A stretch of DNA of 11,307 nt from Synergistaceae bacterium (GTDB taxonomy: Bacteria; Synergistota; Synergistia; Synergistales; Aminobacteriaceae), in NCBI GenBank assembly GCA_017446645.1, contig JAFSQO010000270.1:1-11307 (forward strand), written 5' to 3'. Of this stretch, positions 6,199-9,677 are shown piece by piece. A program made the position numbers and the translations under genes. The notes under the pieces are model-generated. The model saw only the letters and a program-made list of their open reading frames with translations, was not told the origin of the DNA and did not search any database. How positions within the stretch are numbered: position 1 is the stretch's first letter; each line of letters starts with the position of its first letter.

Positions 6199-7311
6199 AT
6201 GTACGATTACTTAATTGTCGGCTCAGGACTATTCGGAGCTGTCTTTGCTCATGAGGCAGTCTGGCACTCAAAATCGGTCCTTGTTGTCGAAAAGCGCGCT
6301 CATATCGGCGGCAACATCTACACCGAGAACATTCACGGGATTCACGTGCATTCTTACGGTGCACATATCTTTCACACGAACAATAAACGCGTCTGGGACT
6401 TTGTGAATAATCTGGCAGACTTCAACAGGTTCACAAACTCGCCTATAGCAAATTACAAGGGTGAAATTTACTCGTTGCCCTTTAACATGTACACTTTCAA
6501 TAAAATCTGGGGAGTAATCACACCTGAAGAGGCCCGCGAAAAAATTAACTCTCAACGTGAAGCAGCAGGCATAACAGAGCCTCATAATCTCGAAGAGCAG
6601 GCAATAAGTCTCGTAGGCACAGACATTTACGAGAAACTAATCAAAGGCTACACCCAAAAGCAGTGGGGCAGGTCATGCAGGGAACTTCCGGCGTTCATAA
6701 TAAAACGTCTCCCAGTCCGGCTGAAATACGATAATAATTATTTTGACGCACTCTATCAAGGTATCCCGGTTAATGGCTACACGAGCATCATAGAGAAGCT
6801 CCTCGAAGGCTGCGAAGTGAGATTAAGCTGCGATTACTTTGATCACAGGGCAGAACTTGAGGGACTTGCTGACAGGGTAATATTCACTGCTCCGATTGAT
6901 CAATATTTTGACTATGAGCTGGGTACGCTTGAATACAGGACTCTGAGATTTGAGCAGGAAATCCTGAACGGCACGAGTAATTTTCAGGGCAATGCAGTAG
7001 TGAACTACACTGACGAAGATACGCCCTACATGAGAATTATCGAGCATAAGCATTTTTATCCGGGCCTTGAGCTTGACGAAGATTTAACCGTAATAACCCG
7101 AGAATTCAGCTCAGAGTGGCACAAGGGCATGGAAGCCTATTACCCAGTGAATGATGCGAAGAATTCCAGACTGTACGAGGCATACAGGGAACTCGCTGCC
7201 TCAAGATGTCCTAATGTAATATTTGGCGGCAGATTAGGTGAATATAAATATTACGATATGGACGTTGTAATCGCTAAGGCAATGGAACTCGCAGAAAAAA
7301 TAATTGCGTGA
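6199..7311 (+). CDS. glf: UDP-galactopyranose mutase
   Basis: FAD-dependent enzyme that interconverts UDP-galactopyranose and UDP-galactofuranose, the donor for galactofuranose in O-antigen, capsule or other surface glycans; cytoplasmic. The 370-residue length matches bacterial members. The FAD-binding motif GSGLFG (8-13) is followed by the FAD-contacting EKRAHIGGN (31-39). The family stretch HSYGAHIFHT (51-60) and the substrate region GYTQKQWGR (150-158) are present. RLPVR ending at Arg174 and YDNNYF (177-182) match the mobile-loop area that clamps the UDP-sugar. GGRLGEYKYYDMD (343-355) is the conserved C-terminal flavin/substrate segment. AAGGAG (6185-6190) precedes the ATG by eight bases. 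No glycosyltransferases or sugar genes adjoin it, which is unusual because glf often sits in polysaccharide clusters. The next gene, infC, is 188 bases away and appears to have its own promoter. Confidence 0.97.
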   Translation: MYDYLIVGSGLFGAVFAHEAVWHSKSVLVVEKRAHIGGNIYTENIHGIHVHSYGAHIFHTNNKRVWDFVNNLADFNRFTNSPIANYKGEIYSLPFNMYTFNKIWGVITPEEAREKINSQREAAGITEPHNLEEQAISLVGTDIYEKLIKGYTQKQWGRSCRELPAFIIKRLPVRLKYDNNYFDALYQGIPVNGYTSIIEKLLEGCEVRLSCDYFDHRAELEGLADRVIFTAPIDQYFDYELGTLEYRTLRFEQEILNGTSNFQGNAVVNYTDEDTPYMRIIEHKHFYPGLELDEDLTVITREFSSEWHKGMEAYYPVNDAKNSRLYEAYRELAASRCPNVIFGGRLGEYKYYDMDVVIAKAMELAEKIIA

Positions 7312-7332
7312 AATTGCGATTTATGCTATATT
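7304..7332 (+). promoter_or_regulatory. Candidate extended -10 promoter of the infC operon
   Basis: TTGCGT (7304-7309, 3 of 6), a 17-base spacer, then TATATT (7327-7332, 5 of 6) preceded by TGC, giving the extended -10 form TGnTATATT. The -35 overlaps the end of glf. The predicted start is near 7339, so the infC leader would be about 160 bases long and begin just before the alternating hairpin segments. Confidence 0.5.
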
Positions 7333-7344
7333 TTGCTCCGGCTC

Positions 7345-7480
7345 TCCTGAACGGTTGAATAAATAGATACTGTCAGGGAAAAATATTCAAGCAGCCTGAT
7401 GATAAATTTCTAACCATGCAAATAACGTCAGGATATGCTTGCAAAACGAGCCTGTCCTGATTTTATTATATATTTTTATT
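7345..7480 (+). promoter_or_regulatory. Putative transcription attenuator in the infC leader
   Basis: Five segments alternate in complementarity: A TCCTGA (7345-7350), B TCAGGG (7373-7378), C CCTGATG (7395-7401), D CGTCAGGA (7426-7433), E TCCTGA (7455-7460). Pairing A-B with C-D (seven pairs for C-D) leaves E free. Pairing B-C with D-E builds a terminator followed by a T-rich tract. A and E are the same six bases, so A could also pair with D. Such mutually exclusive folds are typical of attenuation. In Bacillus subtilis the infC-rpmI-rplT leader is controlled by L20 through attenuation. Whether L20 acts here is inference. No T-box motif is visible. Confidence 0.5.
7428..7480 (+). terminator. 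Intrinsic terminator upstream of infC
   Basis: The outer stem is TCAGGA (7428-7433) with TCCTGA (7455-7460). The inner stem is GCTTG (7437-7441) with CGAGC (7447-7451) around loop CAAAA, with a three-by-three internal loop between them. A T-rich tract (7461-7480) follows at once. It can end glf read-through and, given the leader promoter, act as the terminator arm of the attenuator. Confidence 0.75.
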
Positions 7481-7484
7481 ATAT

Positions 7485-7494
7485 AAGGAGGAGG
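7485..7494 (+). promoter_or_regulatory. Ribosome binding site setting the TTG start of infC
   Basis: AAGGAGGAGG offers two overlapping AGGAGG sites, five and eight bases before TTG at 7500. No in-frame ATG lies nearby: the first is codon 41, well inside the conserved domain. The site therefore decides for the TTG start. It lies only a few bases after the terminator T-tract. Confidence 0.85.
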
Positions 7495-7499
7495 AATTT

Positions 7500-8021
7500 T
7501 TGCCCGCTAATGAGGAAAATGCTCCGCGCGTCAATAACGAAATAACGTCACTGCAGGTTTTATTGGTCGATGAAAACGGAGTTAAAGTAGGAGTTACTAA
7601 CACCGCTGAAGCTATACGAATGGCAAACGAACAATCTCTGGATCTGGTAGAGGTCGCACCGCTTGCAAGCCCGCCGGTTTGCAGGATAATGGACTACGGA
7701 AAGTATCGTTATCAGCTCCAGAAGAAGGAAAAAGATGCCCGGAAAAAGCAAAAGGTTCAGGAACTGAAGGAAATAAAAATGCGTCCTAAAATCGATGACC
7801 ATGATTTTGAGTTCAAGACCAAAGCCGTGAGGACATTCTTAGAGAAAGGCCACCGCGTAAAAGTCTCTGTTTTCTTCAGGGGACGAGAGATGTCATTTCT
7901 TGAACGCGGAGAAGAAGTGCTTAATCGGGTAATAGCAATGTGTGAGGACGTAGGCAAGAGTGAAGGCAAGCCCTCAATGGAAGGCCGTTACATGAGATTG
8001 CTCTTAACGCCTCTGAAATAA
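7500..8021 (+). CDS. infC: Translation initiation factor IF-3
   Basis: Binds the 30S subunit, keeps it apart from 50S and checks start-codon/initiator-tRNA pairing. The 173-residue length is normal. The N-terminal domain (about 11-80) begins RVNNEITSLQVLLVDENG and contains the signature region PVCRIMDYGKYRY (59-71). A basic linker, KKEKDARKKQK (75-85), follows. The C-terminal domain (about 88-172) shows KEIKMRPKIDDHDF (90-103) and VKVSVFFRGREM (120-131). The gene starts with TTG behind a very strong AGGAGG site. E. coli infC also uses a rare start (AUU) that lets IF3 repress its own synthesis, so the non-ATG start may be regulatory, although TTG is less exceptional. It is the first gene of infC-rpmI-rplT-pheS-pheT, 27 bases before rpmI, behind a putative attenuator. 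Confidence 0.98.
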   Translation: MPANEENAPRVNNEITSLQVLLVDENGVKVGVTNTAEAIRMANEQSLDLVEVAPLASPPVCRIMDYGKYRYQLQKKEKDARKKQKVQELKEIKMRPKIDDHDFEFKTKAVRTFLEKGHRVKVSVFFRGREMSFLERGEEVLNRVIAMCEDVGKSEGKPSMEGRYMRLLLTPLK

Positions 8022-8048
8022 TAAATCACGAAAGGAGAAATTTTTTTC

Positions 8049-8246
8049 ATGCCCAAATTAAAATCACACTCAGGAGCTAAAAAAAGGTTTTTCAAGACAG
8101 CTTCAGGAAAATTCGCTTATCGTAAGTGCTCGCGCTCGCATATCCTGGTGAATAAAAAGCCGTCAAGAATGCGAAGGCTCAAGGCAACAGGTTACGTCTC
8201 TGAAACTTTGACGACCCAGATGAGACACTTACTGCCCTATGATTAA
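8049..8246 (+). CDS. rpmI: 50S ribosomal protein L35
   Basis: Small basic protein of the large ribosomal subunit, 65 residues, the usual size. It begins with the family pattern MPKLKSHSGAKKRF and contains the typical core FKTASGKFAYRK. The middle is Lys/Arg-rich, and the C-terminal part, TTQMRHLLPYD, matches the usual end with its LLPY motif. AAAGGAG (8031-8037) precedes the ATG by 11 bases, slightly long, through a T-rich spacer. It lies between infC and rplT as in most bacteria, 24 bases before rplT, and is co-transcribed with them. Nothing unusual is seen. Confidence 0.98.
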   Translation: MPKLKSHSGAKKRFFKTASGKFAYRKCSRSHILVNKKPSRMRRLKATGYVSETLTTQMRHLLPYD

Positions 8247-8270
8247 TAGTAATTGGAGAGGTGAAAGATT

Positions 8271-8621
8271 ATGAGAGTTAAAGGCGCATCAGCAAGCAAC
8301 AACAAGCGCAAGAAGTTATTCAAGATTACCAAAGGCTACTGGGGACAGCGCAAGAACGTCTACCGCAGGGCAAGAGAAGCATATTTGGCATCACTGTCAA
8401 GGGCATACGTTGACCGCAAGCGCAAAAAGAGGGATTTCCGCCGTCTCTGGATTACCAGAATCAGTGCAGCAGTCCGTGCAGAGGGCATGAGTTACAGCGT
8501 ATTCATGAACGGTCTCAAGAAAGCAGGAATTAACATCAACCGCAAAATGTTGAGCGAGCTTGCTATTCATGATGATAAGGCCTTCAGGGAACTTGTCGCA
8601 AAAGTAAAGGCAGCACTGTAA
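8271..8621 (+). CDS. rplT: 50S ribosomal protein L20
   Basis: Primary rRNA-binding protein needed early in 50S assembly and, in both E. coli and B. subtilis, a repressor of its own operon. The 116-residue length is standard. The basic N-terminal tail contains KLFKITKGYWGQRKNVYRRA (about 15-34), and the globular part contains RRLWITRISAAVRAEGMSYS (57-76) and ININRKMLSELAI (92-104). The start is ATG with GGAGAGGTG (8255-8263) eight bases upstream. The N-terminus reads MRVKGASASNNKRKK where many L20 proteins have MPRVK, a one-residue-shorter start that the ribosome site supports. The stop is three bases before pheS. L20 is the natural candidate effector for the leader structure upstream of infC. 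Confidence 0.98.
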   Translation: MRVKGASASNNKRKKLFKITKGYWGQRKNVYRRAREAYLASLSRAYVDRKRKKRDFRRLWITRISAAVRAEGMSYSVFMNGLKKAGININRKMLSELAIHDDKAFRELVAKVKAAL

Positions 8622-8624
8622 TCC

Positions 8625-9677
8625 ATGGCATTAGAAATAGAACAACTCAGGGCTTCATTCGTTGAGGCTCTGAAAAATATTAATTCGCTTCAGGAACTTG
8701 ATGATCTGCGAGTAAAATTCACCGGCAAAAAAGGCGAGCTTACCCTGATGCTGCGGTCACTCGGAAAGCTGCCCCCTGAAGAACGCAAACAGGCAGGCCA
8801 GGAACTCAATAATTTACGCGACGAAATAGAGAACTCACTATCATCAACCGGTAAGAAAATCCGCGATTCAGAAAATGATAAACAGGAAATCAACGAACGC
8901 ATTGACGTTACATTACCGGCTAGAGGCAGATTATCAGGAGCTTTTCACCCTGTAATGCAGACAATGCACGAGATAGCGAATATCATGCAGGGTCTTGGCT
9001 ACTCCGTTGCAAGCGGTCCCGAAATCGAAGAGGAGTTCTATAATTTTGAATGCCTGAATGTTCCCAAATGGCACCCCGCAAGAGACATGCAGGATACTTT
9101 TTATTTTCCTGACGGCAAGCTGCTCCGCACCCACACTTCACCCGTTCAGATTAGATCCATGCTGAAGTACGGCGCACCTTTACGCATAGTGTGCCCCGGA
9201 AAAGTCTATCGCAGGGATAACGACACTACACACTCCCCAATGTTTAACCAGATGGAGGGCCTGTTAATCGATAAAGATGTCTCGTTCTCAGAGATGAAGG
9301 GCACGATGTCAGAGATGTTGAATGCATTCTTCGGGAAGTCCCTTAAATCGCGATTCAGGGCGAGTTATTTCCCGTTTACTGAGCCTAGCATGGAGCTTGA
9401 TATCGAGTGCGTTGAGTGTTCAGGTCATGATGAGCATTGCCGAGTCTGTCACGGCACGGGCTGGCTTGAAGTCGTAGGTATGGGAATGGTTCACCCTAAC
9501 GTAATTCGTGCTGGCAAGATTGACCCTGACGAATATAACGGTTTTGCTTTCGGAATTGGCTTGGACAGAATGGCGATGTTAAAGTACGGCATTAGCGATT
9601 TAAGATTATTATTTGACGGTAACGTTTCATTTTTGAATTCAGGCTTGAATTCAGGTTTGGAGGTCTCTCAATGTTAA
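8625..9677 (+). CDS. pheS: Phenylalanyl-tRNA synthetase alpha subunit
   Basis: Catalytic subunit of the alpha2-beta2 enzyme that charges tRNA-Phe; cytoplasmic. An N-terminal coiled-coil (about 1-90) that contacts tRNA precedes the class II core. HPVMQTMHEIANIM (108-121) begins the core. Motif 2 lies around VCPGKVYRRDNDTTHSPMF (189-207) and motif 3 is FGIGLDRMAML (309-319). Residues 262-275 hold four cysteines, CVEC and CRVC, before GTGWLE; this is a common feature of the bacterial family and possibly metal-binding. The protein has 350 residues, slightly long: after DLRLLFDGNVSFL, where homologues usually end, a tail NSGLNSGLEVSQC follows, made by a 12-base tandem duplication. It overlaps pheT by seven bases and carries the pheT ribosome site. 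The start is three bases after rplT with only a weak AAAGG (8606-8610), implying coupling. Confidence 0.98.
   Translation: MALEIEQLRASFVEALKNINSLQELDDLRVKFTGKKGELTLMLRSLGKLPPEERKQAGQELNNLRDEIENSLSSTGKKIRDSENDKQEINERIDVTLPARGRLSGAFHPVMQTMHEIANIMQGLGYSVASGPEIEEEFYNFECLNVPKWHPARDMQDTFYFPDGKLLRTHTSPVQIRSMLKYGAPLRIVCPGKVYRRDNDTTHSPMFNQMEGLLIDKDVSFSEMKGTMSEMLNAFFGKSLKSRFRASYFPFTEPSMELDIECVECSGHDEHCRVCHGTGWLEVVGMGMVHPNVIRAGKIDPDEYNGFAFGIGLDRMAMLKYGISDLRLLFDGNVSFLNSGLNSGLEVSQC
9633..9656 (+). repeat. 12-base tandem duplication in the pheS tail
   Basis: TTGAATTCAGGC (9633-9644) is followed directly by TTGAATTCAGGT (9645-9656), then by TTGGA. The two units differ only at the last base. They encode the repeated L-N-S-G of the C-terminus and lie just before the pheT ribosome site, so the copy number changes pheS length by four residues without moving the pheT signals. 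Confidence 0.85.
9659..9664 (+). promoter_or_regulatory. Ribosome binding site of pheT inside pheS
   Basis: GGAGGT lies six bases before the ATG at 9671, within the codons for Leu-Glu-Val of the pheS tail. It fixes the pheT start and the seven-base overlap. Confidence 0.8.

Follow-up and report, generated by a model that had tools for sequence, protein, structure and literature searches.

The infC locus and its leader

The DNA analysed here, referred to as the window, is a stretch of 11,307 nucleotides from a Synergistaceae bacterium of an uncultured lineage. At 7500..8621 of its forward strand it carries open reading frames that we take to be infC, encoding IF3 (7500..8021, with a TTG start), rpmI, encoding L35 (8049..8246), and rplT, encoding L20, the proposed sensor protein (8271..8621). 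InfC homologues are found in 74 of the 81 genomes of the family Synergistaceae, and tblastn matches to rpmI and rplT are present at 75/75 and 74/75 infC loci, respectively. The ORF at 8625, 3' of rplT, is presumably pheS.

A predicted promoter on the forward strand (7304..7332) consists of TTGCGT (7304-7309), a 17-nt spacer, and the extended -10 element TGCTATATT (7324-7332), and transcription probably starts at about 7339-7340. An extended -10 promoter in front of the first leader segment had been part of the original prediction. It is visible in the sequence, and its spacing is conserved: the element lies 15-22 nt 5' of GGCUC in 31 of 32 leaders of the window's type, and 60 nt in the remaining one. 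The predicted -35 region (7304-7311 in the window) is contained in the final codons of the upstream ORF 6199-7311.

The predicted transcript opens with GGCU (7340..7343), the 5' strand of helix H1, which pairs with 7393-7396 (100% of cells paired, 31 sequences). It is followed by strand 1 of the L20 motif (C-N-CC), which runs into the 5' strand of helix H2 and corresponds to segment A (7344..7355). C5, C7, and C8 are invariant in 31 leaders, and the C's matching strand 1 do not vary among the 28 canonical L20 cores from other genera. The 3' strand of H2, segment B, lies at 7369..7378, and H2 pairs in 92.3% of cells. Strand 2 of the motif, AAGNAG plus CC and here AAGCAGCC, occupies 7389..7396, with A, A, G, A, and G invariant in 31 leaders. 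The 5' strand of the putative antiterminator, CAAGCA-g-CCUGAUG (7388..7401), comprises segment C and the strand preceding it and has its partner at 7426-7441. This partner is segment D (7426..7441), which provides both the 3' strand of the antiterminator and the 5' strand of the terminator. Segment E (7447..7460), reading CGAGCCUGUCCUGA, is the 3' strand of the terminator, the outer helix of which is paired in 98.9% of cells. A T-rich tract 3' of the terminator (7461..7484) and the ribosome binding site AAGGAGGAGG (7485..7494), which is kept in relatives, complete the leader; all of these features are on the forward strand. Simple consensus scans detected neither this promoter nor this terminator, probably because of the poor -35 element and an internal mismatch in the stem.

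At canonical loci of the family (e.g. L136, L153, L122), the likely infC start is ATA in 32/34 cases and ATT in 2/34, located 8-9 nt after GGAGG where GGAGG is present, and infC seems to start with AUA in this family. In the window's genus, ATA TTG (7497-7502 in the window) is kept at 6/32 loci and ATT TTG at 3/32, while UUG is the likely start at the other 23, the window included. IF3 control works through rare start codons, and this control may have been lost at the loci of the genus that start with UUG.

Strand order and distribution of the leader forms

In leaders of the window's type, the motif is arranged in the order GGCU-C-N-CC ... GG ... AAGNAG-CC, whereas AAGNRG comes first in the canonical order of other genera. 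All 28 canonical cores have AAGN[AG]G on the 5' side of the hairpin, whereas the corresponding strand AAGCAGCC of the window sits 3' of H2 rather than 5' of H1. The strand order of the Rfam L20_leader (AAGNAG, H1 hairpin, C-N-CC hairpin H2) is thus not found in window-type leaders. Nevertheless, their 5' domain contains the core invariants of L20 leaders, namely AAGNRG, C.C.CC, and GG. An invariant permuted counterpart exists for 10 of the 14 invariant canonical columns (A,A,G,G / C,C,C,C / G,G), and the remaining four are distal H1 pairs, which are replaced by GG/CC in permuted leaders. In the RNAalifold results, the G of AAG forms an additional pair with a C, both in the permuted leaders and in canonical cores that were permuted in silico. 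When a two-strand canonical profile was read in permuted order, 0-9 of 1000 shuffles attained its score in the 19/32 leaders tried, 13/32 having been left out. Scores ranged from 2.2 to 10.4 in canonical and from 16.8 to 18.5 in permuted order, the leaders being related and the tests not independent. Helices and conserved nucleotides are therefore the same as in the canonical form, with the ends moved, as in a circular permutation; at the level of sequence, the permuted order is plain.

The distribution of the two forms was followed in 185 Synergistota genomes from 62 genera, among them 43 genomes of the window's genus (g1). The next genus (g11) is joined to g1 in one clade with a support of 96/89. 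The 40 infC loci of g1, which come from 39 genomes, comprise 32 with a window-type leader, two of another form (L114 and L116), three with a canonical L20 leader (L131, L134, and L138, from two genomes), and three that were unscored owing to a contig end (L100) or an insertion (L087 and L117). The permuted aptamer was later located upstream of infC in L087 and also within the genome of L117. In these two genomes, leader and infC are about 1.3-1.4 kb apart (L087:2017-3440; L117:1671-2348, with the leader at 4481-4544 of contig C42 in genome G035). The insert of L087 contains a 377-aa ORF with the Pfam domains OrfB_IS605 and Cas12f1-like_TNB, which starts about 35 nt after the leader's AAGGAGGAGG, and the insert of L117 contains an ORF of 225 aa that is similar by eye.

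Three models were used. R2 is a canonical model from 28 cores of other genera, R1 is based on R2-type cores permuted in silico, and R3 is a model of the permuted g1 form with 31 training rows, the window among them. In alignments A2 and A3, 20 of the 48 extracted canonical cores were left out, 18 because of an H2 end misplaced by the script or a very long hairpin and two (L131 and L134) as members of the window's own genus. R2 matches the infC leader at 40/40 loci of other genera tried, 16 of which are outside its training, and none of the 32 permuted leaders. At E 1e-3, it matches 118/185 genomes and 50/62 genera, with 0/43 in g1; adjacency to infC was checked at the 40 loci only. Two g1 genomes carry a canonical leader below this threshold of the phylum search, and a direct search of the canonical g1 loci with R2 gave E values of about 1e-4 for L131, L134, and L138 and of 0.003 for L114. 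R3 matches 33/185 genomes at E 1e-3, all of which belong to g1, and covers 7340-7396 of the window with 52.4 bits, the window being one of its training rows. Genome G041 contains three copies of the permuted leader (contigs C49, C129, and C170). An R3-type match to the permuted motif 3' of infC (L127:2104-2143, 20 bits, E 0.0045) is probably due to chance.

At full reach, R1 matches 11/32 permuted leaders with E 0.5-1.8 over 129 kb and L082 in part (E 4.6), with no match in the window. It also scores 11.8-28.9 bits on 29/36 other canonical loci through the H2 of its training and thus discriminates poorly. R1 was set aside as a weaker line of evidence for the permutation, since its matches are in the right place yet weak and unspecific.

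Origin of the permuted form

All 32 permuted leaders fall into one clade of 37 with a support of 100/99, in a tree calculated without 18 of the 75 rows. The four leaders of g11 are matched by R1 over their full length with 47.5-48.7 bits, compared with at most 28.9 bits at other canonical loci, and are also matched by R2; L118-L120 are training rows of both models, and L121 is not. In these leaders, a second AAGCAGA lies 3' of H2, with CUCUCC and a CCG/CGG hairpin behind it, so that AAGNRG stands on both sides. The second AAGNAG site was not reported by R2 in g11, and R3 matches 3/4 of the g11 leaders weakly (E 0.12-0.28). In L121, the first copy reads AGGCAG and the second AAGCAG, indicating that the first AA has decayed.

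The ancestor of the permuted form may have been an L20 leader in which AAGNAG occurred a second time, 3' of H2, as it does in g11. The first copy would then have been lost, and the promoter would have come to adjoin GGCUC. In canonical leaders, the extended -10 element lies 18-42 nt 5' of AAGNRG where found (25/34), while in g11 it lies 54-56 nt before it (2/3 examined); these spacings fit a loss of the first AAGNAG copy with the promoter moved up. Local alignments between g1 and g11 leaders were equalled by 6-79 of 500 shuffles in 9/12 comparisons and by 274-352 in the other three, including window versus L121.

A possible, if less favoured, route to the same order is a new AAGNAG strand that grew 3' of H2 and replaced the old one, which was then lost. 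In line with such a strand replacement, L114 has AAGCGGA directly after H2 and no second full motif, the sister loci L131/L134/L138 have a single site, and the tandem arrangement occurs in one genus only. The second copy in g11, however, is followed by CUCUCC and the CCG/CGG hairpin and in this way resembles a full L20 site, and its spacing is kept by half of the permuted leaders: the distance from AAG to CUCU is 12 in the second copy of all four g11 leaders and in 16/32 g1 leaders, nine further g1 leaders having different distances and seven lacking the CUCU word. In g1, this word is CUCUG[AG], part of the antiterminator strand. Tandem duplication is regarded as the best, though unproven, account of the origin.

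The g1 forms are mixed. L114 and L116 lie inside the permuted clade, yet have the canonical order, L114 with the additional AAGCGGA after H2, and L131/L134/L138 are sister to the other g1 leaders and have one canonical site without a second copy. Their history must therefore have included a reversal, two origins, or a dual form that persisted for a long time. On balance, the data favour a circular permutation with stages, from the canonical genera via g11 with both strands to most of g1 with the second strand only, in the course of which the ends, the promoter, and the switch would have been rewired so that the L20 strand is now part of the antiterminator.

L20 as the likely effector

The leader is located directly before infC-rpmI-rplT, as is the Rfam L20_leader (RF00558), with which it also shares, by structure alone, a terminator before infC. 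The Rfam model matches infC leaders at 6 of 20 loci tried, all of other genera, with E values of 8e-9 (57.5 bits; L153), 6e-6 (L155), 0.0095 (L145), 0.032 (L118), 0.17 (L122), and 0.8 (L124). Across the phylum, it gives noisy matches in 43/185 genomes at E 1e-3 and passes its gathering cut-off in none of the 185; in five g1 genomes, its matches are on contigs other than that of infC. The same search also matches Thermotoga maritima. An Rfam scan of the window, which had been proposed as a check, returned nothing in the leader up to E 10. The proposal that L20 is the likely effector is nevertheless upheld as a prediction by the core invariants in the window-type leaders together with the Rfam matches in other genera.

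Conceivably, the attenuator is conserved and responds to another effector, e.g. IF3, another product of the operon, or a small molecule, its likeness to L20 leaders being convergent or accidental. The absence of an Rfam match in the window and the marginal E values of R1 on the permuted leaders would be in keeping with this. It is unlikely, however, because the motif occupies the place that the canonical L20 motif has in front of the same operon in other genera and keeps 10/14 of its invariants. Furthermore, canonical and permuted models never match the same genus at E 1e-3, and in g11 AAGNAG is present on either side of the hairpin. L20 is therefore considered the likely effector.

Conserved helices and the predicted switch

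The attenuator was originally predicted from five short segments that alternate between CCTGA- and TCAGG-type words. These words are present at 7346, 7373, 7395, 7428, and 7456. Among 20000 dinucleotide shuffles, 806 (4%) contain some 5-base word that alternates with its complement in this five-fold manner, and the alternation alone is thus only slightly unusual. By contrast, 7336-7480 folds with -35.5 kcal/mol compared with a shuffled mean of -24.7 kcal/mol, and 0/200 shuffles were as low. The leader had also been described as built from repeats of one six-base word. This applies to the window but not in general: segment B is CGGGG in 24/31 leaders and segment C is CUCUG[AG] in 25/31, the window being in neither count.

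Alignments A1 and A4 contain 31 of the 32 permuted leaders, including the window; L110 was left out because of long inserts. RNAalifold recovers H1, H2, and the terminator without a given structure, and both sides have changed in 17 sequences for column pair 12-51 and in 12 for 16-47, both within H2. The structure of H1, H2, and terminator beats 500/500 column shuffles in the numbers of paired cells and of cells with double changes and in covariation score, and is unexceptional in pairs with double changes (61/500 shuffles) and pair types (82/500), although related sequences may exceed such shuffles without any structure. Two pairs with double changes are found in the outer terminator helix in 31 leaders. 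The antiterminator (AGCC/GGCU, CUCUGA/UCAGGG) is formed in 88.1% of cells, a value reached by 1/500 shuffles; its covariation score was reached by 20/500, its pairs with double changes by 188/500, and its pair types by 462/500, and its outermost pair fails in 10/31 leaders.

When segments were swapped between species, pairings as good as the real ones were obtained in 1/5000 permutations for A-B and in 0/5000 for both C-D and D-E. For B-C, A-D, and A-E, the real pairings had no advantage over swapped ones (588, 4614, and 431 of 5000, respectively). The terminator D-E with its T-rich tract before the infC ribosome site and the alternative helix C-D, both part of the original prediction, are thus borne out, and the proposed survey of relatives did not return the adverse outcome of no covariation in segments A, B, or C. 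H1 (GGCU/AGCC), H2 (A-B), the C-D antiterminator, and the D-E terminator are conserved among the aligned sequences, and the attenuator structure is well supported.

The pairing GCAUA/UAUGC (A1 columns 139-143 and 202-206, before D and after the U tract) spans the U tract and is formed in 91.5% of cells, with no double changes; it could extend the terminator or form in read-through RNA alone. Between terminator and ribosome site, GCUG[C/A]GGCA (A1 columns 223-233) is present in 29/31 leaders and absent from the window and L082. The post-terminator GCUGCGG presumably resembles 23S rRNA. A 23S mimicry by this motif is not claimed; the matching stretch of Synergistota 23S rRNA is GCTGCGGG. In 23S rRNA, a G-rich strand is followed by CUAAG, an order that resembles the permuted form and is regarded as a lead only.

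In the original description, the switch alternated between A-B with C-D and B-C with D-E, four helices in all. The B-C duplex reaches -8.9 kcal/mol in the window, where B and C can pair because the same word recurs, and has similar values in L085 (-9.6) and L107 (-8.8). Over the 32 leaders, however, its mean is -6.0 compared with -5.8 kcal/mol after swapping, and A-B is compatible with both states and stays paired in both in the folds printed, so that this scheme is very improbable. C-D instead competes with a helix between the C strand and GGCU (7340-7343), which had been overlooked. Equally improbable is a constitutive or merely structural leader with a terminator and no regulation, since two mutually exclusive helices beat species swaps and are formed in 88-99% of cells and a plain terminator needs neither the C-D helix nor H1.

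When the transcript ends after D, forcing the antiterminator gives a lower energy than forcing H1 in 29/32 leaders, by a mean of 3.1 kcal/mol. The window has -24.6 kcal/mol with the antiterminator and -14.7 kcal/mol with H1, and the antiterminator is the lowest-energy state of this transcript. When the transcript ends after E, forcing H1 and the terminator yields a lower energy than the antiterminator in only 10/32 leaders, the state differences spanning -5.7 to +8.3 kcal/mol. According to these folding models, read-through would be the default, since the transcript ending just after D prefers the antiterminator. Folding thus favours read-through, and H1 must be held by something for termination to occur.

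The proposed mechanism centres on the switch strand AAGCAGCCUGA (7389-7399), which would pair either back to GGCU or forward to D. Surplus L20 would bind the 5' domain and stabilise H1/H2, tying up AAGNAGCC and thereby blocking the antiterminator. The freed D could then pair with E, and RNA polymerase would stop at 7461-7484, before infC-rpmI-rplT. The original prediction of an attenuator in front of infC agrees with the conserved, mutually exclusive antiterminator and terminator, and that interpretation as a whole is partly supported, its scheme of states having been replaced. The leader at 7340-7484 is thus probably an attenuator whose 5' domain is a circularly permuted L20 leader and in which L20 binding would bring about termination.

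Comparison with known systems

The closest known system is the L20 leader of Bacillus subtilis and other Firmicutes (RF00558), which has its terminator just before infC in the same operon and in which binding of L20 at the H1/H2 junction promotes the terminator, as described for B. subtilis (PMC6097659). The Rfam consensus AAGaAG...CUUCUCgCCU...CAGG has the same motif positions as the leaders described here. In the Firmicutes leader, AAGNAG opens a closed H1 hairpin that is followed by H2, whereas here H1 is open and GGCU comes first; because AAGNAG comes after H2, the L20 strand runs straight into the antiterminator strand. The canonical leader of Synergistota as represented by R2 shares with the permuted form the phylum, the gene (40 loci), the promoter-proximal place, and the core nucleotides, and differs in strand order and in the distal H1, which is mostly AGAGG/CCUCU compared with AGCC/GGCU here.

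The B. subtilis-type leader has been called narrowly distributed to Firmicutes (PMC6097659), and L20 leaders have been recorded for Gammaproteobacteria and Firmicutes, along with a candidate in Deltaproteobacteria (PMC7247131). Since the Rfam model also matches Thermotoga maritima, Firmicutes are not its sole home, and the present leaders extend it to Synergistota, where scores fall under the Rfam cut-off. In Escherichia coli, L20 autoregulation acts by rRNA mimicry at the translational operator of rpmI-rplT (PMC10931766). This operator has two L20 sites, one of them a long-range pseudoknot, and differs from the present leader in being translational, in its scaffold, and in that infC is outside L20 control. 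The candidate in Deltaproteobacteria has a two-part site with two G-C pairs and an AA dimer on another scaffold (PMC7247131); it is recorded with a single regulated gene and is not called a permutation in the available part of that paper. The B. subtilis rplJL attenuator, in which the L10(L12)4 complex acts via an anti-antiterminator (PMC10931766; see also PMC4538822), is likewise a case of attenuation by ribosomal proteins, with both protein and RNA other than here.

A search of the literature by titles and the beginnings of abstracts, with subscription journals mostly outside its coverage, found no permuted ribosomal leader and no Synergistota leader. Natural RNA permutations have been described for hammerhead and twister ribozymes, 5S rRNA, group II introns, and some processed RNAs, and tandem duplication has been discussed as a possible route to them (PMC10085705). 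In these cases, the fold is the same and the strands are joined otherwise, as in the leaders described here, and the available part of that source names no protein-binding leader or riboswitch. If the proposed permutation is true, it would be a protein-binding regulatory case and would show that an RNA switch can be rewired through a shift of its ends with its binding site retained. Along the series of genera, this path is testable with the same L20 on canonical, dual, and permuted leaders.
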